This document shows positions 2,120-53,049 of a stretch of 64,000 bases of DNA, piece after piece. The notes below the pieces were generated by a model, which was given only the letters and a program-made list of their open reading frames with translations, ran no database searches and was not told the DNA's origin. A program made the translations under genes and the position numbers. Source of the stretch: Flavobacterium ichthyis (GTDB lineage Bacteria; Bacteroidota; Bacteroidia; Flavobacteriales; Flavobacteriaceae); contig NZ_JAABLM010000001.1 in the NCBI RefSeq assembly GCF_009915155.1, positions 1 through 64,000 on the forward strand, given 5' to 3'. Position 1 is the first letter of the stretch. Every line of letters begins with the position of its first letter.

Positions 2120-5100
2120 TTAATTAGTTGCACCGCTACAATCTTTTTCTAAACATTTCCAAATCGATCCGTTGTATAACTTTACACAAGGTGTTGGGCT
2201 ATTGGAAAGGTCATAAATTAACATTCCTGGGACAGGATTTGTAATGACAGAAGTATTTGCAACTCTAGTAATTACAAAACCTTTATTTCTTGATTCAATG
2301 GCTATAAACCCATTTGGTACGTTTCCTGGCCAACCTGTTGTTCCTCCGGCAAATCCTTGGATATCAGAAATACCTGTTTTTGTGAAACTATCAGCTGGAT
2401 TATTGTTAGGCAAATAGGTACAAACTTCTATTGTTACTACATTTGAAGTAGCTGTACAACCACCTGTATTAGTTACAGCCGCACGGTAATACCTGGTTGA
2501 AGTGATTATGCCAGGGCTATAGGTAGCCGAAGTGCCACCTGTTGCTACGTTTGCAAAGTTAATATTGTCTGAAGATACCTGCCATTGAATGGTACCTGAA
2601 GATCCAGTTAATGTTAAAATTGATGGTGCTGTACCAGAAGGAATTGATTGGTTTGCAGAAGCGGTTCCAGCTGCTGCAGCTGGATTTGCAGCTGCAGATG
2701 TTCCTACTGATTGCCCAGCCGATTGTGTATAGCCTGTAATTGCAGGTGTTGCTGTTGGAACAGTTGCAACACCACTTGAATTTACAGTAGTATTTAATTT
2801 ATCTCCAGTAAGATAATTGTCTCCTGACTGAAAATTAGCCCCTCCCTCAATAACATCTGGGCAGCCATCATTATCAGAATCTAAATCTAAATAATCAGGT
2901 TTTCCATCACCATCTGTATCACTATGGTTACAGTAAGTAATTGTGTTTTGAGCAATCATAACAAAACCTTGTTCTCCAAGATTATTAGCAAATGAGCCAG
3001 AGCCGTCATCTAGCGCTGTATAGTCGTAAATAAACGATTGACCATACATAATAGAAGATGGTTGACTATTTGCTGCCGAAGATGGATTGACAATTGGCTG
3101 AAGTTGATTTCTTGCAAAAATTGCACTTCTCACAATGTTGTTTGCAGCAACTGCCCTAAAAGACGCGTAATTAGTTATACCAGTATGGCTACTAAATGAG
3201 GACAGCGGTCCGCTTACATTAGGTAAATTACCAACAGAAATCGTAAAAGTACCTAGTTTATCAACAAAGCCTTGTTCTAAAAAGGTCCTCATGTAAGAAT
3301 CTAATGAACTAGGATTTGGAGCCACACTAGAATTTTCTGTGTTAGTATTATTAATTGGCAAATTAGTGTACAGAGACGATGTAAGCGGTCGAATACCTAA
3401 AACTGTAGTAAAAGGTAGTCCTACTCCTTGCCAAGTATGATTTACAGTACTTGCTTGATTATTCAAATCTGAATATGTAAATGGAACATTGAAGGTATTC
3501 CCTAATCCCGAAACGGGCGTACCTGATGTTAACGTGTAAACCAAATTAAACGTTGCACCACTGACATTGAAAGTAGCATTTGCAGATGCCAAAGTTGCAT
3601 TCATATCCATAGTATAAACACTTTGGGTTGCGCAATATCCCTCATTGGCGTCTAAGATACCATCATTATCATCATCTAAGTCACAGACGTCAGCCACACC
3701 ATCAGCATCAGAGTCCAATCCAGTTGAGCAGTTAAAAACGGTAATAGTTACTACGTTTGATGTGCCGACACAACCGCCTACACTCGAAACAGCTGCGCGG
3801 TAGTAACTTGTAGCACTTAATACTCCTGGGTTATAAGTAGCCAAAGTTCCACCACTAGCAACATTAGTGAATGTTATGTTATCTGATGATACTTGCCATT
3901 GAATGCTTCCCGTAGCTCCCGTTAACGTTAAAGCTGTCGGGGTTGTTCCCGATGGAATTGACTGATTAGCTGAAGCGGTTCCGACAACTAAAACAGGATT
4001 TGCAGCTGCAGATGTTCCTACTACTTGCCCAGCGGCTTGTGTATAACCCGTAATAGAGGGAGTTGCCGTTGGAACCGCTGGCACACCACTTGAATTGACA
4101 GCAGTATTTAACCTACTAACTGAAATATAACTAGCACCTGACTGAAAATTAGCGCCACCTTCTATAACATCTGGACAACCGTCATTGTCGCTGTCTAGAT
4201 CAAGGTGATTGGGAATGCCATCTCCGTCAGTATCAATATCGGTGCAAAAACTTCCTCTAAGATTATAAACTGAATAAGAGCCACCATCCTCATCATAATA
4301 TTCAAACTCGACATAAGCTATTGTAAAACCAGTGTAATTCAAATCAATACGACCTCTATTTCCCTCATTCGCAGGCTGACCAACGGCAGAGAAAGTATTG
4401 TTAATAATTGGAGTAGCAATATTAGTAGGACTGTATAAAGTATAAATAGAAGTAGTTATAGGAATGATGTTACCACTTAAATCATATGCTTTTACAATCA
4501 CTACATCATCATCATCCACATCGAGAAGGCTAAATGTTAAGTTTTTAATAGGAAATTCAAAAGTGTAACGAGAGCCTATTCGTTCAGAGAAATCTGTCTC
4601 ACTTTGACTGGTTCTAATTGCAAATTGCCCAGATTGCCCAATCTGACCACTATGTTCGTTACTAATATCTTGACTGGATATCTGATTTGAATTTAGGTAG
4701 TTTACAAGTGTAATATTATTAGTTCCAATCGCTCCCTGTGGATTTGTTCCATTTAAAACGTTTGTGGCGACGCTATTAGATGATGTTAAGGCAATAGATG
4801 CCGATGTTGTACATGTTCTTTCATTATCATTTAATATTCCATCGTTATCAGCATCTAAGTCACAACTATCACTAATACCATCCCCGTCTGCATCTGGATT
4901 TCCAGAAGCTACCGCATCACATGGATTAACTGGTTGGCTTATAATTACATTATCCCAATAAATATCTTCTGAAGAAGAATTTGCAGTTGAGGTTAAAAGT
5001 ATAGCCGTTGAGGTAATGCCTGCCGGAAGCAAAATATTTCCTGTATTGCCCGTTTGATTATTACCCGAACTTGGACAAATTTGATCGCCGTTTCGAGTCC

Positions 5101-5501: not shown

Positions 5502-8500
5502 TTAGTTTTTTTTGTTTAACAACAATTCTTCCAAACGGTTTAAACGTTCTTGTGTATCTTGGGCTTGTTTTTTAAGCGCTTCGATTTCGGATTGTTGTTT
5601 ATCTATGGTATCTTGTTGTTCTATTGTGTGAATGTACAACTCTTCAATTTTCTCTAAGCTTTGAATGGTTAACTTGGTCATATCAAATGTATAGCCGTTT
5701 TCTGCTTTGGATAAATCTGAAATTGATTCTACACCAGGTAAGTGGTTTTTTTCTTTAATGAAATTTCTAACATAATCTAAAGACTTGAACTCATAGTTTG
5801 GATTAATGTTGGATTTTCCATTGAAATATTTTTCAAAAACATAATCGGCATATACACTATTGGTGGTGTAAATTTTACCTGTTGTAGAGATATCACCTGC
5901 TACATGGAATTTTGGTGTTATCGTTGAAGCACCTACTGTAATTGTTGGGGTAACTACTGCATTGATAAGCAGTTCTCCTGTTGGTGTAAGTCGCATCTTT
6001 TCTGAAGAAATTGTATTTCCAACCTCGTTCGTTGTAAACCTAATTGGTGAAGGTACAAAAGTGTTATGTGTTCCAAGCGTCAAACTGGTTGCACCTTCTC
6101 CCGCAAAAACTTGAGCAGAATTATCATCAAATGATTGTAGATATAAATTTGTTACTCTGCCGTTTGAGTTTGCATCATTAGACTTTACTGTAATATCAGC
6201 GGTATTAGCTAAGCCTTCTTGAATAAGAGAACCATTAGATGCCATTCTAGTTCTTTGTGCAGAACCTACAAAGCGTAACTCGTTGCCGTTTAGCGTAGCA
6301 GTTCTTATTCCTGTACCCCCACCAGCTGGAACAATAGAACCATTAGCCGTGTAGATGTTGTTTGCAGCAGGATTCGCCCAAATAATATTTCCTGAAGCTG
6401 TTTGTGTCATTACCTGACCGCTATTTCCAGTTGTAGTTGGGAACCAATATTCACCAGTTTGAGCTCCTCCCGAATCTCTAAAGTTAAAACGTACACCTGT
6501 TGTTTTTTGTATAAAAATCTCTGACATATTATTTACCGGGAATGGATTTAACGCTCCATTTGTATTAGTATGTCTTAAACGTAAGCCATCGTTAAGCAAC
6601 GAAATCGTAGTACCATAATTTGCCCCAACATTATAGCTTTCTAAAAAGAAGTTTCCAGATGCATCAGTACGCACCTCAGATTTTGAACTTCCGCTCTTAT
6701 CTCTAGATGAAACTGTTGAGCGAAGATCATCTGTAGAAATGATAGACTCAACACCAGAATTTGGATTTGATCCGTTTGTTCCAGAGGTGATAAACGCTGA
6801 TGTAGAGTGAACCGCACCTACCCTATACGACCCATTTGCACCAAGCCAATAGGTGGAAGACACTTGCGTTCCAGGCACTAATGCGTTGTCGATTTCCATA
6901 CCATAAATATTACCTCCAGAAGAAACTTGAGATTTAAAATTACCTTTTACCTCTAACTGTTTCTGAGGACTACTTACCGTTGCAAAATTTCCAATACCTA
7001 CTCTTCCATTTTGATAAATATCCTGAGTATTAGCAGATGCTTGGGTCGTACCACCCTGTATATTCCAAGGTTCAACTTTTAAAGTACTTATATCTAGGCT
7101 ATTTGATGGTATTCCATTTACGGTAGATGTTAAATTGTTTCCGGAAAGCGCTAAGCTGTTGCTATTAATAATGTTCGCCGTTGGACTGATTCCATTAACT
7201 GTACTGGTCAATACATTCCCATTAGAACTCAAAGTATGAGTCACTGTTTGTGGCGTTGAAGGACCTGCTGGACCTTGAGGACCTTGTGCAGCAATTCCAG
7301 TATCAGTTGATCCAATAAACCAGTTTCCGTTGCCACCGATTGTTGGCGTTAATCCATCTTGACCGTCTTGTCCGTCTGCTCCATCTTGTCCTGCTGGACC
7401 TTGCGCAACAATTCCGGTATCAGTTGATCCAATAAACCAGTTTCCGTTTCCACCAATTGTTGGGGTTAATCCGTCTTGTCCATCTTGTCCGTCTTGACCG
7501 TCTGCTCCATCTTGTCCTGCTGGACCTTGTGCAGCAATTCCGGTATCAGTAGTTCCAATAAACCAGTTTCCGTTGCCACCGATTGTTGGCGTTAATCCAT
7601 CTTGACCGTCTTGTCCGTCTTGTCCGTCTTGTCCGTCTGCTCCGTTTTGTCCTTGTGCAGCAATTCCGGTATCGGTAGTTCCGATGAACCAGTTTCCGTT
7701 TCCACCGATTGTTGGCGTTAATCCATCTTGTCCATCTTGTCCGTCTGCTCCGTTTTGTCCTTGTGCAGCAATTCCGGTATCAGTTGATCCAATAAACCAG
7801 TTTCCGTTTCCACCGATTGTTGGCGTTAATCCATCTTGTCCGTCTTGACCGTCTGCTCCATCTTGTCCTGCTGGACCTTGTGCAGCAATTCCGGTATCGG
7901 TTGTTCCGATGAACCAGTTTCCGTTTCCACCGATTGTTGGGGTTAATCCATCTTGACCGTCTTGTCCGTCTGCTCCGTTTTGTCCTTGTGCAGCAATTCC
8001 GGTATCAGTTGATCCAATAAACCAGTTTCCGTTTCCACCAATTGTTGGGGTTAATCCGTCTTGTCCGTCTTGACCTGCTGGACCTTGAGGGCCTACCAAA
8101 TCTCCTATATTAAGTACCGTTGAATTGCCATTTTCATCTACATAAGTAATTGTACCAGCAATTGGATCGTGTGAAATAGATGTTAAGGTCTCGAAATTAG
8201 GAACCATTTGCCCTAAATTTAAAGAATTGGCAACTCCATTTTCATCGTTGTAAACTAATATACCTGTAGCGGGATTGAATGAGGCAGACGTTAATGTCTC
8301 GTTATCCTGAATTATTTGTTGTATGTTAACATTTTGAATATTACCACCTGCATCTACATATGTAAATTGATTGGTTGTAGGATTCCATATAACAATATTT
8401 GCTGGAAGTTCGGCTGAAGTTGCCAATCTTCTCCAACGATCTACATACCAATAATAATAACCTGGCACAATATCTCCAGCAGTAGCCGTGTTAAATACTA

Positions 8501-8702
8501 ATAAACTATTAATATTACCATTGGTGATTGTGGTGTTATCAACTGAACTAGTTAGAGTCACTCTGGGAATAAGAACCCCTTTATCTGAAGCGACAATTTC
8601 CAGTTGAGATGAGGAATTCGGTAAAGATGTACCAATCCCTACTTGACCGTAGGAAGCATAAGCTCCCAATACCAACATTAGTGGAAGTAATTTATTTTTC
8701 AT
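5502..8702 (-). CDS. Collagen-like repeat, tail-fibre-type exported protein with C-terminal coiled coil
   Basis: A 1066-residue protein with a signal peptide (MKNKLLPLMLVLGAYASYG) followed by QVGIGTSLPNSSSQLEI, an opening shared by many flavobacterial tail-fibre-like proteins. Residues about 45-100 hold the GVLIPRV...PGYYYWYVDRW module related to the C-termini of the next two genes. Residues about 205-480 carry seven units of GLTPTIGGNGNWFIG plus linkers of GQDG/GPAG collagen-type triplets. A long beta-rich fibre region follows. The C-terminus (KYFNGKSNINPNYEF...NHLPGVESISDL) resembles the end region of proteins with an intramolecular-chaperone tail and finishes in a heptad-rich coiled coil (residues about 1015-1066). 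It is probably a trimeric surface fibre. First gene of the five-gene operon, 73 bases before the next start. No T9SS sorting domain is visible, so its export route is uncertain. Confidence 0.85.
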   Translation of the reverse strand: MKNKLLPLMLVLGAYASYGQVGIGTSLPNSSSQLEIVASDKGVLIPRVTLTSSVDNTTITNGNINSLLVFNTATAGDIVPGYYYWYVDRWRRLATSAELPANIVIWNPTTNQFTYVDAGGNIQNVNIQQIIQDNETLTSASFNPATGILVYNDENGVANSLNLGQMVPNFETLTSISHDPIAGTITYVDENGNSTVLNIGDLVGPQGPAGQDGQDGLTPTIGGNGNWFIGSTDTGIAAQGQNGADGQDGQDGLTPTIGGNGNWFIGTTDTGIAAQGPAGQDGADGQDGQDGLTPTIGGNGNWFIGSTDTGIAAQGQNGADGQDGQDGLTPTIGGNGNWFIGTTDTGIAAQGQNGADGQDGQDGQDGQDGLTPTIGGNGNWFIGTTDTGIAAQGPAGQDGADGQDGQDGQDGLTPTIGGNGNWFIGSTDTGIVAQGPAGQDGADGQDGQDGLTPTIGGNGNWFIGSTDTGIAAQGPQGPAGPSTPQTVTHTLSSNGNVLTSTVNGISPTANIINSNSLALSGNNLTSTVNGIPSNSLDISTLKVEPWNIQGGTTQASANTQDIYQNGRVGIGNFATVSSPQKQLEVKGNFKSQVSSGGNIYGMEIDNALVPGTQVSSTYWLGANGSYRVGAVHSTSAFITSGTNGSNPNSGVESIISTDDLRSTVSSRDKSGSSKSEVRTDASGNFFLESYNVGANYGTTISLLNDGLRLRHTNTNGALNPFPVNNMSEIFIQKTTGVRFNFRDSGGAQTGEYWFPTTTGNSGQVMTQTASGNIIWANPAANNIYTANGSIVPAGGGTGIRTATLNGNELRFVGSAQRTRMASNGSLIQEGLANTADITVKSNDANSNGRVTNLYLQSFDDNSAQVFAGEGATSLTLGTHNTFVPSPIRFTTNEVGNTISSEKMRLTPTGELLINAVVTPTITVGASTITPKFHVAGDISTTGKIYTTNSVYADYVFEKYFNGKSNINPNYEFKSLDYVRNFIKEKNHLPGVESISDLSKAENGYTFDMTKLTIQSLEKIEELYIHTIEQQDTIDKQQSEIEALKKQAQDTQERLNRLEELLLNKKN
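7267..8094 (-). repeat. Seven tandem 36-42-codon units in the collagen-like protein
   Basis: Each unit encodes GLTPTIGGNGNWFIG, then (S/T)TDTGI(A/V)AQG, then a run of GxDG triplets. Units differ mainly in the number of GQD (9-base) steps and in GQNGADG versus GPAGQDGADG linkers. The high DNA identity between units makes the array prone to length change by recombination or slippage. Confidence 0.9.
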
Positions 8703-9357
8703 AGACGTTAAATATGTTCTTCGTAATCTTACTCACAATTATTTTAATTCTTCAATTCATAGTCGACTAACTTCTGCTTGAAACATTTAAATTCAAGAAG
8801 AAACGACTACAGCAAATTGAGATTGCTGCATTTAAAAACTAAAAAATATATGTGCGGCACGATGGGGATAAGCTACACAAGCCATCAAATTGTGGTTGAT
8901 ATAAGTGATGGTGGTTAATTTCAATGGAATTATTTCAGTCATCCATGGGGATGAATTTTTCACGACCTAATAGTCCTATCAAAATTATGCAACAAAGTTA
9001 GAGTACTTAAACCATTTCACAGATAAAAAAACGAAAAAAATCGATGAAATACATATTTTATAGGCTAAAACCATATAATTTGTAATATTTTTCGCTAAAA
9101 AACAAACGTATTTGTAAATCATTTATGTCTTATTTTTCTCTCATTATTTTCAAGATATTGAAATGCAGCAATTTACCGTTATACACTTATGTTTCGCATA
9201 AATTTAAATATTCATGATCTAAATAAACTGAGTTTAATAACTTTAAAACAAATAGGGTCTATTTTATTTTAAAGCCATCTTCTTTATAGCAAGTTTCAAT
9301 TTTTTTAAGATAATTTTTTAAATTCTAATCGTATCTTTATTTTTTTGATCCTACAGT
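8703..9357. other. 655-base AT-rich intergenic region between divergent genes
   Basis: It separates the minus-strand surface operon from the plus-strand MscS gene. I see no credible gene. The longest tidy reading frame (minus strand, ATG at 8942) is 34 codons with no family resemblance. A small hairpin, TCATCC-ATGG-GGATGA, lies at 8939-8954 and is followed by a T run. The regulatory signals of the surface operon must lie here, but I could not identify a clear TTTG-N19-TAnnTTTG promoter in either direction. Confidence 0.5.
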
Positions 9358-11121
9358 ATGATTATCCAAAAAATTATATTTTATACTTTATTAGTTATAT
9401 TACTATCTGGTGCTTTTAATCCTGCAAATAGTCAATTATTAGAAACGCCTGTAAAAGAAGCAACAATTGAGCAAATTCCTGGTGACTCTTTAGGTAGGAG
9501 AAATCCACGAGGCACAGTTAGTGGATTTTTCAAAGCCTTTGAAGAACAGGATTTTCAAAGGGCAAGTCAATATCTTACTCTCAAGCGTTCCTATCGAAAC
9601 AAAAAAGATCGAGAGCGTGTGGTAAAACAATTTCAACAAGTACTTGATCAAAGCGGTGAAATCTTGCCTTATTCTTTAATTAGCAATAAAAATATTGGAC
9701 AAACTGACGATGACTTAGAACCTGAGTTAGATTTCGTGGGATCAGTAGATATTAATGGTGAAAAAGTTAGCTTATTAGTAGAAAATTCTGGTGATGAAAT
9801 GCGAGCCGTTTGGAAATTTTCTCAAGAAACTATTGAAGCAATTACCGCTGTAAAAATTGACGACAGTGCTTTAATCAATACTATTTTACCCGTAAGCTTA
9901 AAAGAAAAAATTTTGGCCGGTGTTCCAATTGGTCATTGGCTTGCCATTATTGTTATTCTAGCAATTTCCTATGTATTAGCATGGGGATTAACAAGTTTAA
10001 TCAATTTTATTGTCAGAAAAATTTGCAAAGAAAACACCGAGCGACAAATATTTGGCTTACTTAATGCCATTTCATTACCGTTGCAATTAATTTTTGCGGT
10101 ATGGATTTTTGTTGATTTTTCTCAAAGAAGCGGTATTTCGATTATTATCAGGCAACGATTTAGTTTCCTTACAGTTCTAGTAGGTATTGTAGCTTTCTTG
10201 ATTTTTTTATGGAGAATAACCGACTTATTGAGCGAAATTACAAAAAATAAAATGACTGTGAGAGGACGTGTTTCTGCTATTTCTGTTATTTTGTTTTTAA
10301 AAAGAACCCTTAAAGTTGCCATTTTTATTTTTGGTGCCATAGCTATTTTAGGAGCCATTGGGATTGATGTAACCACTGGACTTGCCGCATTAGGAATAGG
10401 TGGTATTGCATTGGCCTTAGGTGCTCAAAAAACAGTAGAAAATTTTGTTGGTAGTGTTACCTTAGTAATAGATCAGCCCATTCGTGTGGGGGATTTTTGT
10501 CAAATAAATGATGTAAAAGGTACAGTAGAACAAATAGGAATGCGTTCCACTAAAATTAGGACTACTGCCAGAACTGTAGTTACAATTCCAAATGGAATTC
10601 TTTCTGCTACAAATATTGAAAATTATACATTTAGAGATCGATTCTTGTTCAATATTTTTCTTGATTTGAGATATGAAACCACACCAGATCAACTGAGATT
10701 TCTATTAGTTGAACTTAGAAAAATCTTATATTCACATCCTAAAGTGAGTCCAGATCCCGCTAGAGTAAGATTTGCCGAATTAGGCGCTAATTCACTTAAA
10801 ATAGAAATATTTTCTTATATTCTAGCTGATGATATTGATGACTTCCAAGAGGTTAGAGAGGATTTACTCTTACGATTTATAGATTTAGTTGCCGAAAGTG
10901 GAACTGGGTTTGCCTTTCCTTCACAAACACTTTATTTTGCTCAGGACGAAGGAATTTCGCCAGAAAAAATATCCGCTACAGAAGAAAAAGTGAAGCAATG
11001 GAAAAATGAAAATAAGATGCACTTGCCGAAATTTAAACAGGAAACTATTGACCAACTTCGCAATACAATTGAATATCCAACTAAAGGATCTTCAGGCTAT
11101 GAAAAACCAGAAGTTAATTAA
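9358..11121 (+). CDS. MscS-family mechanosensitive ion channel
   Basis: A 587-residue protein starting with a signal peptide (MIIQKIIFYTLLVILLSGAF, cleaved near ANSQ). A roughly 150-residue periplasmic domain follows. Membrane segments begin near residue 195 (HWLAIIVILAISYVLAWGL), and further helices lead to the conserved pore helix and beta domain: GIGGIALALGAQKTVENFVG, then IDQPIRVGDFCQI, GTVEQIGMRSTKIRT and IPNGILSATNIENYT. These are the MscS hallmarks. MscS channels open under membrane tension and release solutes during hypo-osmotic shock. The protein is about twice as long as E. coli MscS because of the extra N-terminal domain, which is common in Bacteroidota. The gene stands alone and ends in a strong terminator. 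A weak TATCTTTA -7 element lies shortly upstream of the start. Confidence 0.93.
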   Translation: MIIQKIIFYTLLVILLSGAFNPANSQLLETPVKEATIEQIPGDSLGRRNPRGTVSGFFKAFEEQDFQRASQYLTLKRSYRNKKDRERVVKQFQQVLDQSGEILPYSLISNKNIGQTDDDLEPELDFVGSVDINGEKVSLLVENSGDEMRAVWKFSQETIEAITAVKIDDSALINTILPVSLKEKILAGVPIGHWLAIIVILAISYVLAWGLTSLINFIVRKICKENTERQIFGLLNAISLPLQLIFAVWIFVDFSQRSGISIIIRQRFSFLTVLVGIVAFLIFLWRITDLLSEITKNKMTVRGRVSAISVILFLKRTLKVAIFIFGAIAILGAIGIDVTTGLAALGIGGIALALGAQKTVENFVGSVTLVIDQPIRVGDFCQINDVKGTVEQIGMRSTKIRTTARTVVTIPNGILSATNIENYTFRDRFLFNIFLDLRYETTPDQLRFLLVELRKILYSHPKVSPDPARVRFAELGANSLKIEIFSYILADDIDDFQEVREDLLLRFIDLVAESGTGFAFPSQTLYFAQDEGISPEKISATEEKVKQWKNENKMHLPKFKQETIDQLRNTIEYPTKGSSGYEKPEVN

Positions 11122-32950: not shown

Positions 32951-33241
32951 ATGATTACGCAACAACAACGTACCGCTTTATTTTTTTGTATTCCGTTAAT
33001 ACTTTTGACCTTTCCGCTGGTGGCAATGCAATTTACAACGGAAGTAGATTGGAATTGGTTTGATTTTTTAATTGCCGGAATTTTACTTTTCGGAACTGCC
33101 TTTTTGTGCGAATTGGTATTGCGAAAGTTCAAACCCACCAAAACACGATTGATGATTTGTACCGGAATCTTATTTATTTTATTTTTAATTTGGGCTGAAT
33201 TAGCGTTAGGTATATTTGGTTCGCCGATTGCCGGAAGTTAA
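32951..33241 (+). CDS. Small two-to-three-helix membrane protein, unknown
   Basis: A 96-residue protein with hydrophobic segments at residues about 9-27, 38-56 and 68-87, separated by short charged loops (TTEVDWNWFD and RKFKPTKTR). No named domain. It stands alone between the giant T9SS gene and the GbsR module and is closely followed by the first 108-bp repeat copy. Small proteins of this layout are common in flavobacteria, but I cannot name a function. Confidence 0.65.
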   Translation: MITQQQRTALFFCIPLILLTFPLVAMQFTTEVDWNWFDFLIAGILLFGTAFLCELVLRKFKPTKTRLMICTGILFILFLIWAELALGIFGSPIAGS

Positions 33242-33293
33242 TTGAGCTTCGTTTTTAAACTTTTTTCCATCACAATTTCGTCAAATTTAAAAT

Positions 33294-33401
33294 TTTGGCA
33301 AAGTTCAAAATTTTCTTATCAAAAAAAATTCAATTTTAGCCGAAACGAAAAACTTTATACGATTTTCCGGATAATTGTTGCGTTGTAAGTCGTAGAACGC
33401 C
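33294..33401. repeat. 108-bp direct repeat, copy 1
   Basis: Runs from TTTGGCAAAGTTC to GTAGAACGCC. It is nearly identical to 36134-36240, with four substitutions and one A-run length change by eye. The two copies are in the same orientation and bracket the GbsR-to-oxidoreductase module. A match this long is far above chance. Confidence 0.92.
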
Positions 33402-33420
33402 ATAAATAAAAACCGAAAAA

Positions 33421-33444
33421 AACTTTCAAATATTTTTGAAAGTT
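33421..33444. promoter_or_regulatory. Candidate operator: perfect 10-bp inverted repeat upstream of the GbsR/MarR gene
   Basis: AACTTTCAAA-TATT-TTTGAAAGTT is a perfect palindrome with 4-base spacer. Its right arm supplies the TTTG of the -33 element of the adjacent promoter, so bound regulator would block RNA polymerase. Size and position fit an autoregulated MarR-type dimer. Confidence 0.7.
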
Positions 33445-33458
33445 TAAAAACAATATTG

Positions 33459-33466
33459 TACATTTG
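33459..33466 (+). promoter_or_regulatory. -7 promoter element of the GbsR/MarR gene (leaderless)
   Basis: TACATTTG is 20 bases after the TTTG at 33435-33438 and only 4 bases before the ATG at 33471. Transcription should begin at or next to the start codon. Confidence 0.65.
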
Positions 33467-33470
33467 AACT

Positions 33471-33974
33471 ATGGAATTCAAAGAAGCAAAAAATAAATTT
33501 ATCCAAACTTGGGGTTCGCTCGGTTCTCAATGGGGAATTAACAAGACGATGGCGCAAATTCATGCGTTGCTGATGGTGTCGCCAGAACCGCTTTCGATGG
33601 AAGATATTATGGAAGAATTGCTGATTTCGAGGGGAAATGCAAGTATGAATTTGCGGGCGTTGATGGATTGGGGAATTGTTTACAAGGAGTTTAAATCTGG
33701 CGAACGAAAGGAGTTTTTTACGGCGGAAAAAGATTTGGATGAGTTGGCGGTGAAAATTGCAAAAGAACGCAGCAAACGGGAAATTAAACCGGCTTTGAAA
33801 GTTTTGAAAGAGGTTTCATCAATTGAAAAAAACCAGTCGAATGAAACGAAACATTTTGTAGAGAAAACAAATGAACTGTACGATTTTGTGCTCAAAGCCG
33901 ACAATATGATTGAAAAAGCCACGGAATTTCAAGACAATTGGATTGGCAGAATGTTATTGAAAATGATGAAATAA
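33471..33974 (+). CDS. GbsR/MarR-family transcriptional regulator
   Basis: A 167-residue DNA-binding protein. The winged helix spans residues about 20-85: WGINKTMAQIHALLMVSPEP, LSMEDIMEELLISRGNASMN (recognition helix) and LRALMDWGIVYKEFKSGERK (wing). The C-terminal half is helical and likely dimerises. The GbsR branch of MarR-type regulators in other bacteria controls osmoprotectant or stress genes; here the ligand is unknown. A perfect inverted repeat covers its own promoter and a second imperfect palindrome lies in front of the next gene, so it probably represses itself and the small membrane-protein genes downstream. Confidence 0.88.
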   Translation: MEFKEAKNKFIQTWGSLGSQWGINKTMAQIHALLMVSPEPLSMEDIMEELLISRGNASMNLRALMDWGIVYKEFKSGERKEFFTAEKDLDELAVKIAKERSKREIKPALKVLKEVSSIEKNQSNETKHFVEKTNELYDFVLKADNMIEKATEFQDNWIGRMLLKMMK

Positions 33975-33981
33975 AAAAATT

Positions 33982-34011
33982 TGAAATATTGTTTCACTTT
34001 TTTCTGAAAGT
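33982..34011. promoter_or_regulatory. Second operator-like palindromic stretch before the membrane-protein genes
   Basis: TGAAA-TATTG-TTTCA (33982-33996) is directly followed by ACTTTTTTCTGAAAGT, whose ACTTT/AAAGT arms repeat the edges of the upstream palindrome. It lies 18 bases before the ATG at 34029. It is a weaker match than 33421-33444. Confidence 0.4.
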
Positions 34012-34028
34012 TTAAAAATTAGTAAATT

Positions 34029-34370
34029 ATGAAAGCAGCTTATAAATTAAATTATTTTTTCATAACGTTGCCAGCGGCGTTAGCGCTGTTTGGATTAATC
34101 GAAGAAAAATTTCTGTATTATTCTTTGTTGTCATTTATCCCCTTAGGTCTCTATCAAATTGTAATTACAATTCGGCTTGCAAGTGTTCTTTCTACAAATG
34201 TTCACTATCAAATTTACGTTATCGGTGTTCATTTATTTTTTATCCTGGCAGTCACATTAGATTTTTGGTGGGATTATCTCGAACCTAATAGTGAAATTTT
34301 CTATGGAATTCCACCATTGTTGGCAATTTATTTCTCATTTATTCTTTACCAAAAATCCCGAAAATTATGA
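34029..34370 (+). CDS. Small four-helix membrane protein, unknown
   Basis: A 113-residue membrane protein with hydrophobic segments at residues about 9-23, 30-50, 57-78 and 89-108, and very little soluble sequence. It reads like a small sensor, permease-like or DUF-type protein, but I recognise no family. It overlaps the following gene by 4 bases (stop 34370, start 34367), an ATGA coupling. It follows the GbsR gene and an operator-like palindrome and should be under that regulator's control. Confidence 0.7.
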   Translation: MKAAYKLNYFFITLPAALALFGLIEEKFLYYSLLSFIPLGLYQIVITIRLASVLSTNVHYQIYVIGVHLFFILAVTLDFWWDYLEPNSEIFYGIPPLLAIYFSFILYQKSRKL

Positions 34371-34714
34371 ATCTAAATGTTGTTGGCTACTTTATTTTTT
34401 TGGCAATATCCATATACATTATTTTAATTGTTGGAAAAATATGTTTTCGAAACGGAAATATTTTTGTGATGGAATTAATTCCTGATTATCAAGAATTGTG
34501 TCAGCAAATAAACAAACTTTTATTGGTTGGCTATTACTTGGTGAATATTGGTTATTGTGCAATGACGCTTATCAATTGGTCTAAAATTGAAACACTGCTT
34601 CAGTTAACTGAAATTATAGCTATAAAAACGGCCTTAATTATCGGGATCCTCGGCTTTTTACATTACCTCAACATTTTCATTCTTACTAATTACCTTCAAA
34701 AATTTTTTAAATAA
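34367..34714 (+). CDS. Small membrane protein, paralogue A of a tandem pair
   Basis: A 115-residue protein with three to four hydrophobic segments (residues about 6-24, 50-68, 85-110). Its VGKICFRNGNIFVMEL and GYYLVNIGYCAMTL phrases match VSKTLFKNGKIFMLYI and GFYLLNIGFALMIL in the next gene at the same spacing, so the two are tandem paralogues. Translation is coupled to the preceding gene by a 4-base overlap. No named family that I recognise. Confidence 0.72.
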   Translation: MNLNVVGYFIFLAISIYIILIVGKICFRNGNIFVMELIPDYQELCQQINKLLLVGYYLVNIGYCAMTLINWSKIETLLQLTEIIAIKTALIIGILGFLHYLNIFILTNYLQKFFK

Positions 34715-34733
34715 ATCTTTAAAATTCAACATT

Positions 34734-35120
34734 ATGGAAACTACAAAAATTTTAATCGGATACATTATCTATTTGCCAATCGCATTATTTTTAACCTATT
34801 TTGTTTCTAAAACATTGTTTAAAAATGGAAAAATATTCATGCTCTACATCTTCAAAGGTCGTACTGAAATTGCGGATGCAACAAACACTCTATTTGAAAC
34901 CGGATTTTATCTCCTAAACATTGGTTTTGCTTTGATGATATTGAAAATAGACGGAAATGTAAATAATTATCAGCGTTTGATCGAAGCTTTAAGTTATAAA
35001 ATTGGTGGCTTTTCAATTTATCTTGGCGTGATGCTTTTTTTAAATTTATATTTCTTTTTTAGAGGAAAGAGAAAAGCAAGAGAAAATCAAGCGACAGAAC
35101 GACCCGTTTTTAAAGCCTAA
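34734..35120 (+). CDS. Small membrane protein, paralogue B of a tandem pair
   Basis: A 128-residue membrane protein with hydrophobic segments at residues about 8-26, 54-71 and 88-110 and a basic, polar C-terminus (RGKRKARENQATERPVFKA) that should face the cytoplasm. It is a diverged copy of the preceding gene, 19 bases downstream. The shared F(K/R)NG(K/N)IF and (L/V)NIG motifs imply a defined family, perhaps a heteromeric membrane complex with its partner; this is inference. Confidence 0.72.
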   Translation: METTKILIGYIIYLPIALFLTYFVSKTLFKNGKIFMLYIFKGRTEIADATNTLFETGFYLLNIGFALMILKIDGNVNNYQRLIEALSYKIGGFSIYLGVMLFLNLYFFFRGKRKARENQATERPVFKA

Positions 35121-35144
35121 CCAAACTTCCTAAATTTTTTCAAA

Positions 35145-35169
35145 CTTTGGAAAAGTTCTTCCGGATAAT
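35145..35169. repeat. Short relic resembling the ends of the 108-bp repeat
   Basis: CTTTGGAAAAGTTC followed directly by TTCCGGATAAT recalls the left end (CTTTGGCAAAGTTC) and inner part (TTTTCCGGATAAT) of the 108-bp repeat with about 55 bases missing between. It could be a deleted third copy. The match is short. Confidence 0.35.
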
Positions 35170-35214
35170 CACCTTTAAATTTTAAAACTTAAATGCTCAT
35201 AAAAACAAAAAAAT

Positions 35215-36120
35215 ATGAAAAAGCTAATCATTGCAGCGGGAACTGGATTTTTAGGTCAGGTTTTGGCAAATTATTTCAAAAATAAATTTGAAGAAATTGT
35301 CATCCTGACAAGAGGAAAATCGGAAGTAAAAAACAAGATAAAGTATGTTAATTGGGATGCCAAAACATTTTCGGGCTGGGAAGAAGAACTTGAAAATGCG
35401 GATGTTTTAATCAACCTTGCCGGAAAATCTGTTGATTGCAGATATACCGAAGAAAATAAAAACGAAATTTTAGCTTCAAGAATTGACAGTACCAAAATTT
35501 TGAATCTCGCCGTTTTAAACTGTGAAAATCCGCCCAAACATTGGCTTAACTCTTCTACTTCTACCATTTACCGACATTCTTTAGACAAACAAATGGCTGA
35601 AATAAATGGCGAAATTGGTGACGATTTTTCGATGAATGTCGCAAAAGCGTGGGAGAAATCTTTTTTTGAAACCGAAACTCCCCAAACTAAAAAAACGGCT
35701 TTGAGAACTTCGATTGTTTTGGGTAAAAATGGTGGCGCTTTTCTTCCACTAAAAAACTTAACAAAGCTTGGTTTTGGTGGAAAACAAGGCAAAGGAAATC
35801 AGTTTATCAGTTGGATTCACGAAAAGGATTTTGCAATAGCCATAGAATTTATCTACGAAAAAGAAATGACGGGAGTTGTGAATATCGTTTCGCCAAAACC
35901 CATTCGAAACGCAGAATTCATGAAAATTTTACGCGAAAGTTTAGGGGTTCCTGCAGGAATTGCTATTGGAGAAAAACTACTAAAATTAGGAGCCAAAATC
36001 ATTGGAACAGAAACTGAATTGGTTTTGAAAAGCAGAAATGTGATTCCGACACGGTTGCTGGAAAATGGTTTTACTTTTAAATTTGGAGATTTACGCAAAG
36101 CGTTTGATGATATAAGATAA
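35215..36120 (+). CDS. TIGR01777-family NAD(P)-dependent oxidoreductase
   Basis: A 301-residue short-chain/epimerase-fold protein. It starts with a nucleotide-binding strand-turn-helix (KKLIIAAGTGFLGQVLANYF; GxxGFLG), followed by a WDAKTFSGWEEELENADVLI phrase and NLAGKSVDCRYTEENKNEIL, the TIGR01777 hallmark. Further family signs are LNSSTSTIYRHS, RTSIVLGKNGGAFLPL and FISWIHEKDFAIAIEFI. The YxxxK catalytic pair of classical dehydrogenases is not obvious here. Substrate unknown. Last gene of the GbsR module, with the second 108-bp repeat copy starting 13 bases after its stop. Confidence 0.9.
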   Translation: MKKLIIAAGTGFLGQVLANYFKNKFEEIVILTRGKSEVKNKIKYVNWDAKTFSGWEEELENADVLINLAGKSVDCRYTEENKNEILASRIDSTKILNLAVLNCENPPKHWLNSSTSTIYRHSLDKQMAEINGEIGDDFSMNVAKAWEKSFFETETPQTKKTALRTSIVLGKNGGAFLPLKNLTKLGFGGKQGKGNQFISWIHEKDFAIAIEFIYEKEMTGVVNIVSPKPIRNAEFMKILRESLGVPAGIAIGEKLLKLGAKIIGTETELVLKSRNVIPTRLLENGFTFKFGDLRKAFDDIR

Positions 36121-36133
36121 TAATTTTTACAGC

Positions 36134-36240
36134 TTTGGCAAAGTTCAAATTTTTCTTATCAAAAAAATTCAATTTTAGCCGAAACGAAAAACTTTACACG
36201 ATTTTCCGGATAATTGTTGCGTGGTAAATCGTAGAACGCC
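36134..36240. repeat. 108-bp direct repeat, copy 2
   Basis: Runs from TTTGGCAAAGTTC to GTAGAACGCC, same orientation as 33294-33401, about 95% identical by eye. It lies between the TIGR01777 gene and the convergent UbiA-like gene. Confidence 0.92.
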
Positions 36241-36291
36241 AAAAAAGAAAATGAGATTTTTTCAAATTTTAAAAACTTTGACGAAAATAAT

Positions 36292-37101
36292 TTACATCAA
36301 AAAAACCATCGCCAACCAAAAAATCGGGATGCTTTCTACCCAGAAACTGGTGTAATATTTGCTTCGGTTTTCGTGGGCAAAATATATAAATAGTGATGTG
36401 ATTACAATTAAAACAGCATTGATAATAAGCTGTTTTTCGTCAATTTCGCTTTTAAAAAATTCTAAAAAGTAAAAAGGAATGAGTAGCAAAATGCCGAGGA
36501 TTTTGGTGTTTTTTACACCTATTTTTTGTGGAACGGTTTGCAATTTTAAGTCGTCGGTTTTGAGGTCGATGATTTCGAAAATTAAAATCAAGACAATGAC
36601 GAGCAAAAATCTTTGGCAAAATTTCAGCAAAACGTCGGCACTAATGTTAGTTTCAAAATTTAGAAGTGGCAACAAAATCGTTACACCAGCCCAGCAAAAT
36701 GCTACGATGTAAATTTTGATACCCGTCCAATTTCGGAAGTTGGGTTTGTGGGAAAATAACGGAATGGCATACAAAAATGTGAATCCGGAAAATATTAAGG
36801 CGACAATTTGTGTGTTACTTTTTAATTGTAAAAAAAAATATCCTGAAATTAAAATTGATAAAGCGCTCAAGCCGAAAATTAATTTTATTTCCCGAGAAAT
36901 CTTTTTTTTGTTTCTGCAAAAACTTTCAAACTTGATAAAATTGTACCCGAAAATTGTTCCAAAAAAAGCAAAACCTGCCATCTCAAAATCAAATGGTTTT
37001 TGGAACATGTGATTCGTCATTAAAACCAATGACAATACGGAAATTGCAACATGAATACTTGCTTTTACATAGAATTGAAATAGTTTTTGAGCGACTTGCA
37101 T
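36292..37101 (-). CDS. UbiA-like polytopic membrane protein
   Basis: A 269-residue protein with eight or so hydrophobic helices. The loop FEIIDLKTDDLKLQTVPQKI followed by GVKNTK matches the second Asp-rich loop of UbiA prenyltransferases (DxxxD, then QTxPxxxG). The first loop, normally NxxxDxxxD, reads GYNFIKFESFCRNKKK here and has no Asp pair, so the enzyme may be inactive as a standard prenyltransferase or use another substrate. The start is the ATG at 37101, 4 bases after a consensus -7 element, so the mRNA is probably leaderless. It is convergent with the GbsR module. Confidence 0.7.
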   Translation of the reverse strand: MQVAQKLFQFYVKASIHVAISVLSLVLMTNHMFQKPFDFEMAGFAFFGTIFGYNFIKFESFCRNKKKISREIKLIFGLSALSILISGYFFLQLKSNTQIVALIFSGFTFLYAIPLFSHKPNFRNWTGIKIYIVAFCWAGVTILLPLLNFETNISADVLLKFCQRFLLVIVLILIFEIIDLKTDDLKLQTVPQKIGVKNTKILGILLLIPFYFLEFFKSEIDEKQLIINAVLIVITSLFIYFAHENRSKYYTSFWVESIPIFWLAMVFLM

Positions 37102-42418: not shown

Positions 42419-42558
42419 AGCCAATCCCGCTTTCCGCTGCAAGCCTTCGGCAAAAAAAATAATTTTCCATCTCGCGGCAGGAGCTTGCTCTGGTCGCTCT
42501 GCCACTTCGGGAAAATTAATTTTTTTTTACCTCAGGGCTTTCCGCTACAATCGGGGCT
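42419..42558. repeat. Composite intergenic repeat element, copy 1
   Basis: Begins AGCCAATCCCGCTTTCCGCT, ends TTTCCGCTACAATCGGGGCT. Between the two directly repeated CTTTCCGCT(G/A)CAA segments is a long inverted repeat (AAAAAAAATAATTTTCC near 42452-42468 against GGAAAATTAATTTTTTTT near 42510-42528) and an inner GGCAG-type hairpin. The architecture matches 52901-53001 read on the other strand. Such elements occupy intergenic space and can form strong hairpins. Confidence 0.7.
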
Positions 42559-42570
42559 ATACACAAAACC

Positions 42571-52695: not shown

Positions 52696-53049
52696 GAGCT
52701 AAAGATAATATTTAAAGTTGAAAATGTAAAAATTTAGTTTCAGGTTTAAAGTTTTTGAATCTGAAACTTGAAGTTTTTGAAACAGTAAGAAGTTAAGGTT
52801 AATTAATGTTTTTACTGTTAAGTGTAAAACGTGTAACCTGAAACTTTAAACTTTAAACATTTTTCCAAAACTTTCCAAAAGTGCGGAAAGATTTTCCAAT
52901 AGCCCCGTCCCGAAGCTTCGGGAGAAGCGGAAATCCTTTTTGTCAATTACCTGGATGAAAATCCGTGGAATTGATAAAAAGATTGAAGCGAAAAGCGGGA
53001 ATTTCCTTTGCTGAAAATGCCTGACCTTTCGCTCCAAAAAAATATATTT
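52696..53049. other. 354-base intergenic region with repeat element
   Basis: The region between the kinase start and the acyl-CoA dehydrogenase stop. The first part (about 52738-52860) contains repeated CTGAAACTT/TTTAAAGTTT phrases in both orientations, a decayed simple repeat. The second part holds the composite repeat element at 52901-53001. A minus-strand reading frame at 52846-53037 runs through the repeat and has no protein character. A TATCTTTA box (52700-52707, minus strand) directly before the kinase ATG could be its promoter. Confidence 0.6.
52901..53001. repeat. Composite intergenic repeat element, copy 2, carrying the CCCGAAGCTTCGGG palindrome
   Basis: On the minus strand it reads TTCCCGCTTTTCGCTTCAAT, then a hairpin (TTTTTATCAATTCC against GGTAATTGACAAAAA), then GGATTTCCGCTTCTCCCGAA and a closing GGGGCT. 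This mirrors the architecture of 42419-42558. Where copy 1 has ACAATCGGGGCT, copy 2 carries the palindrome CCCGAAGCTTCGGG (52909-52922), so the palindrome looks inserted into the repeat. Confidence 0.7.

Follow-up and report, generated by a model that had tools for sequence, protein, structure and literature searches.

MITE, REP and ERIC-type repeats are short, intergenic and non-coding, and they occur in more than one copy; in MITE families the number of copies is usually higher than in the case described here (PMC10969869). Integron gene cassettes present another arrangement, in which genes are followed by a repeat of ~100 bp (attC) in the same orientation. A further short element, the DUF805 RNA of the Rfam collection (RF03081; related entry DUF805b, RF02914), is found in relatives in the very interval considered below. 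The window, a stretch of 64,000 nucleotides from Flavobacterium ichthyis, contains a locus that resembles each of these systems in part. Two near-identical copies of a short repeat surround a compact group of genes, comprising a regulator, three small genes and an oxidoreductase gene, with the following features:

32951–33241, plus strand: gene of 96 aa with homologues in 48 of 249 genomes, directly left of repeat copy 1
33294–33402, plus strand: repeat copy 1, 109 bp, with the 96-aa gene on its left and the regulator gene on its right
33421–33444, no strand assigned: candidate operator before the regulator gene, the 24-bp palindrome AACTTTCA-N8-TGAAAGTT, perfect match
33471–33974, plus strand: GbsR/MarR-type regulator, 167 aa; MarR_2 at E 4e-7, CudC-like NCBIfam entry at E 2e-14 and under its cut-off
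33989–34012, no strand assigned: second, weaker candidate operator, after the regulator gene and before the 113-aa gene; 13 of 16 arm positions
34029–34370, plus strand: small gene, 113 aa, without family match
34367–34714, plus strand: small gene, 115 aa, paralogue of the 128-aa gene (cross-matches of 26–38% identity in relatives)
34734–35120, plus strand: small gene, 128 aa, paralogue of the 115-aa gene
35145–35169, plus strand: stretch once claimed as a relic of a third repeat copy, judged a chance likeness
35215–36120, plus strand: TIGR01777 family oxidoreductase, E 4.5e-79
36134–36241, plus strand: repeat copy 2, 108 bp, between the convergent TIGR01777 gene and 269-aa gene

The original prediction of near-identical direct repeats around a gene module holds: the copies share orientation, are 95% identical and differ only by four substitutions and one 1-nt indel, and all five genes (the regulator gene, the three small genes and the TIGR01777 gene) lie between them. 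Exact matches of 36 and 25 bp are common to both copies, far beyond chance. Both copies are intergenic and non-coding, with a spacing of 2.8 kb, and each comes after a plus-strand gene. The likeness of their left flanks is reached by 351 of 500 shuffles and so lies below most of them, while the marginal likeness of the right flanks is reached by 45 of 500; the similarity therefore ends at the core edges of the repeat. Read from the sequence and the alignment, terminal inverted repeats are weak (copy 2 has TTTGGC...GCCAAA, copy 1 no more than TGGC...GCCA), and no target site duplication is seen by eye in the AT-rich flanks. The supposed third copy does not stand up: its score, 25, is no better than chance, being equalled or exceeded by 84–103 of 500 dinucleotide shuffles. 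A minus-strand open frame of ~30 codons was considered as a protein remnant and rejected: it has no plasmid match, and its sole weak match in the genus (E 0.009) lacks DNA similarity.

The repeat is confined to this locus and, within the material searched, to this lineage. Copies were counted by sequence search of the host genome, a draft of 2.86 Mb in 37 contigs that is 99.98% complete. The genome holds exactly two, and the next best match is an AT-rich stretch of 36 bp. Among 398 genomes of the genus, none except the window's own contains the repeat at E 1e-5; at E 1e-3, 23 others give short matches only (21–55 bp), mostly to the AT-rich part of the repeat. Searches of plasmids and phages yielded no copy, and an exact 22-mer of the repeat has no match in viral contigs. 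An exact 20-mer has four matches in genome contigs, which were dismissed as unrelated because the alignment is confined to the 20-mer region. Where relatives have a homologue of the 96-aa gene, the repeat was looked for beside it and not found; in one of them (G078) this homologue and the regulator gene are on different contigs.

Comparison with relatives bears on the age of the module. In their mapped loci the regulator gene lies upstream of the 269-aa gene and of the gene downstream of the latter, which, from its sequence, we take to be gcvP-like. Several relatives also have the TIGR01777 gene, in unchanged order, and the repeat is absent in every relative examined that has the regulator. 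G111, the nearest sampled relative by the gcvP-like gene (92%), shows the order of the window: a large secreted-type gene, the regulator gene, the TIGR01777 gene, the 269-aa gene and gcvP. The gap between the TIGR01777 and 269-aa genes is ~57 bp in G111, without the repeat, versus 172 bp in the window, and the gap before the regulator gene, ~133 bp in G111, contains neither the 96-aa gene nor the repeat. Given that relatives, G111 among them, carry the regulator locus with no repeat at both junctions, the repeats were added to a locus already in place; on this comparison of gene order, the regulator-membrane-oxidoreductase module is older than the repeat. The earlier proposal of a joint insertion or amplification of module and repeat is thus not supported, as the regulator is single-copy, has this position throughout the genus with no repeat beside it, and both junctions are repeat-free in G111. 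The gene content and order of the regulator-to-gcvP interval vary by species. Across species, the paralogues of 115 and 128 aa (34367–35120) shift together relative to the TIGR01777 gene.

Other species have repeat pairs of their own in this interval, unrelated to that of the window. In L132, copies of the DUF805 RNA at 7312–7378 and 9996–10059 flank a two-gene insert and form, like the window repeat, a direct-repeat pair, here 2.7 kb apart; the second of them falls below the family's gathering score. In L133, a gene at 8613–9062 is accompanied by a broken second copy near 9990–10095, 81% identical. In G111, CCCTGGCAGGG palindromes flank the TIGR01777 gene on both sides and represent two of the ten sites listed for that genome. 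The DUF805 RNA (RF03081) or its exact core is seen near the regulator gene in L067, L070, L073, L077, L095, L132 (twice) and L133, mostly ~250 bp upstream. The GTGGAGCAGA element had been considered as a generic dispersed repeat; this was rejected, as it has 0 exact matches in 400 kb of G283 and its Rfam identity is DUF805 RNA. It might be that the regulator-gcvP interval repeatedly captures and copies short non-coding elements across species (the window repeat, the DUF805 RNA and the CCCTGGCAGGG palindromes), and that repeat pairs drive the turnover of regulator-controlled membrane genes, but we regard this generalisation as a long shot.

A compact set of genes with a direct repeat at each end could suggest a module inserted as a unit bounded by these repeats, in the manner of an integron-like or att-like cassette. 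However, relatives including G111 hold the regulator and TIGR01777 genes in place without repeats, and the GC content of the flanks falls within the range seen in the module. Unlike attC sites, neither copy contains the core motifs RYYYAAC or GTTRRRY on either strand, and a search of the genome for the integron integrase (TIGR02249) gave nothing above the cut-off, only sub-threshold integrase-like matches. A cassette is accordingly scarcely tenable. A MITE- or REP-like mobile element, non-autonomous and of low copy number, might have inserted twice. Relative to G111 both copies are intergenic insertions, the ends of the repeat are weakly inverted (TTTGGC...GCCA), and a different palindromic repeat family flanks the TIGR01777 gene in G111. 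This explanation is nevertheless unlikely. Unlike MITE, REP and ERIC elements, the repeat has only two copies, at one locus instead of the dispersed positions expected of a MITE, and it lacks convincing terminal inverted repeats or a clear target duplication; no relatives of it were found in the genus sample, plasmids or phages, and as RNA, whole copies fold close to background. The originally envisaged landing of a dispersed element at two sites was judged unlikely because the genome's only two copies are 2.8 kb apart in the same orientation; by our own estimate, two random insertions would fall <3 kb apart with a chance of ~0.2%. Alternatively, the repeats might have a function as non-coding elements, for example as a small RNA, a protein-binding site or a terminator, and have been retained at two places for that reason. 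The location of each copy after a plus-strand gene, the 95% identity kept in non-coding DNA and the DUF805 RNA that precedes the regulator gene by ~250 bp in relatives would be compatible with such a role, which is still quite unlikely: unlike the DUF805 RNA, the repeat matches no Rfam covariance model, RF03081 included, up to E 5 in 33200–36400, neither copy has a terminator-like site, and the repeat is not conserved in relatives. A structured RNA was rejected, given this result and whole-copy RNA folding z-scores of -0.6 to -1.5, near background. Half-copies folded as DNA give z-scores of -1.8 and -2.0, in different halves of the two copies.

The repeat is best explained, with a probability of about 50%, as lineage-specific non-coding DNA that was copied locally and so came to stand at either end of an older module. 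Random insertions would seldom lie so close together, so that the presence of two copies only, direct and 2.8 kb apart, makes a local event more likely; the variable gene content and order, together with the independent repeat pairs in other species, speak for a fluid interval and for local duplication or recombination within it. The second copy would have arisen by such an event within the interval, either because the repeat and the module were duplicated in tandem and the spare module was later lost, or through recombination with a variant of the same interval that had a different gene order; the module itself is not mobile via these repeats. What counts against local duplication is that no clear remnant of a second module is found beside either copy, that the likeness of the right flanks is marginal, and that no relative with a single copy was found. 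Given the 5% divergence between the copies, the duplication is not very recent. With repeats of this length and identity, a loss of ~2.8 kb by recombination would be possible in principle. The pair resembles an ordinary local duplication of DNA, not the edge of a mobile gene cassette. Near-identical repeats round a compact gene group thus need not signal such a cassette, as relatives show that the genes predate the repeats.

Among the enclosed genes, the TIGR01777 gene passes the curated cut-off of its family (266.1 versus 207.35 bits), whereas the regulator falls short of the CudC equivalog cut-off (53.9 versus 218 bits); the regulator is therefore only a distant relative of CudC, and the name GbsR is a loose one. 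It is matched in 146 of 299 genomes of the genus, almost always one per genome. Across all 30 aligned regulator loci, sites of the type found at 33421–33444 retain 14–16 of 16 arm positions and those of the type at 33989–34012 retain 13–16, compared with 12 of 16 at most for control stretches within the regulator gene. In the host genome the palindrome is matched perfectly only at 33421, where it abuts TACATTTG, a sequence similar to the Bacteroidetes -7 element. Its sequence conservation makes the palindrome a strong candidate operator for autoregulation of the regulator and for control of the next operon. The conserved 24-bp palindrome flanking the gene thus provides a directly testable candidate operator of an uncharacterised regulator that is found in about half of the genus.

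Elsewhere, the window contains two matches to the Flavo-1 RNA (42419–42562, minus strand, and 52910–53006, plus strand), a tandem array of 108–117-bp units at 7282–8102, and a 300-bp direct repeat (2416–2715 and 3730–4029) whose copies are 72% identical and 1.3 kb apart.
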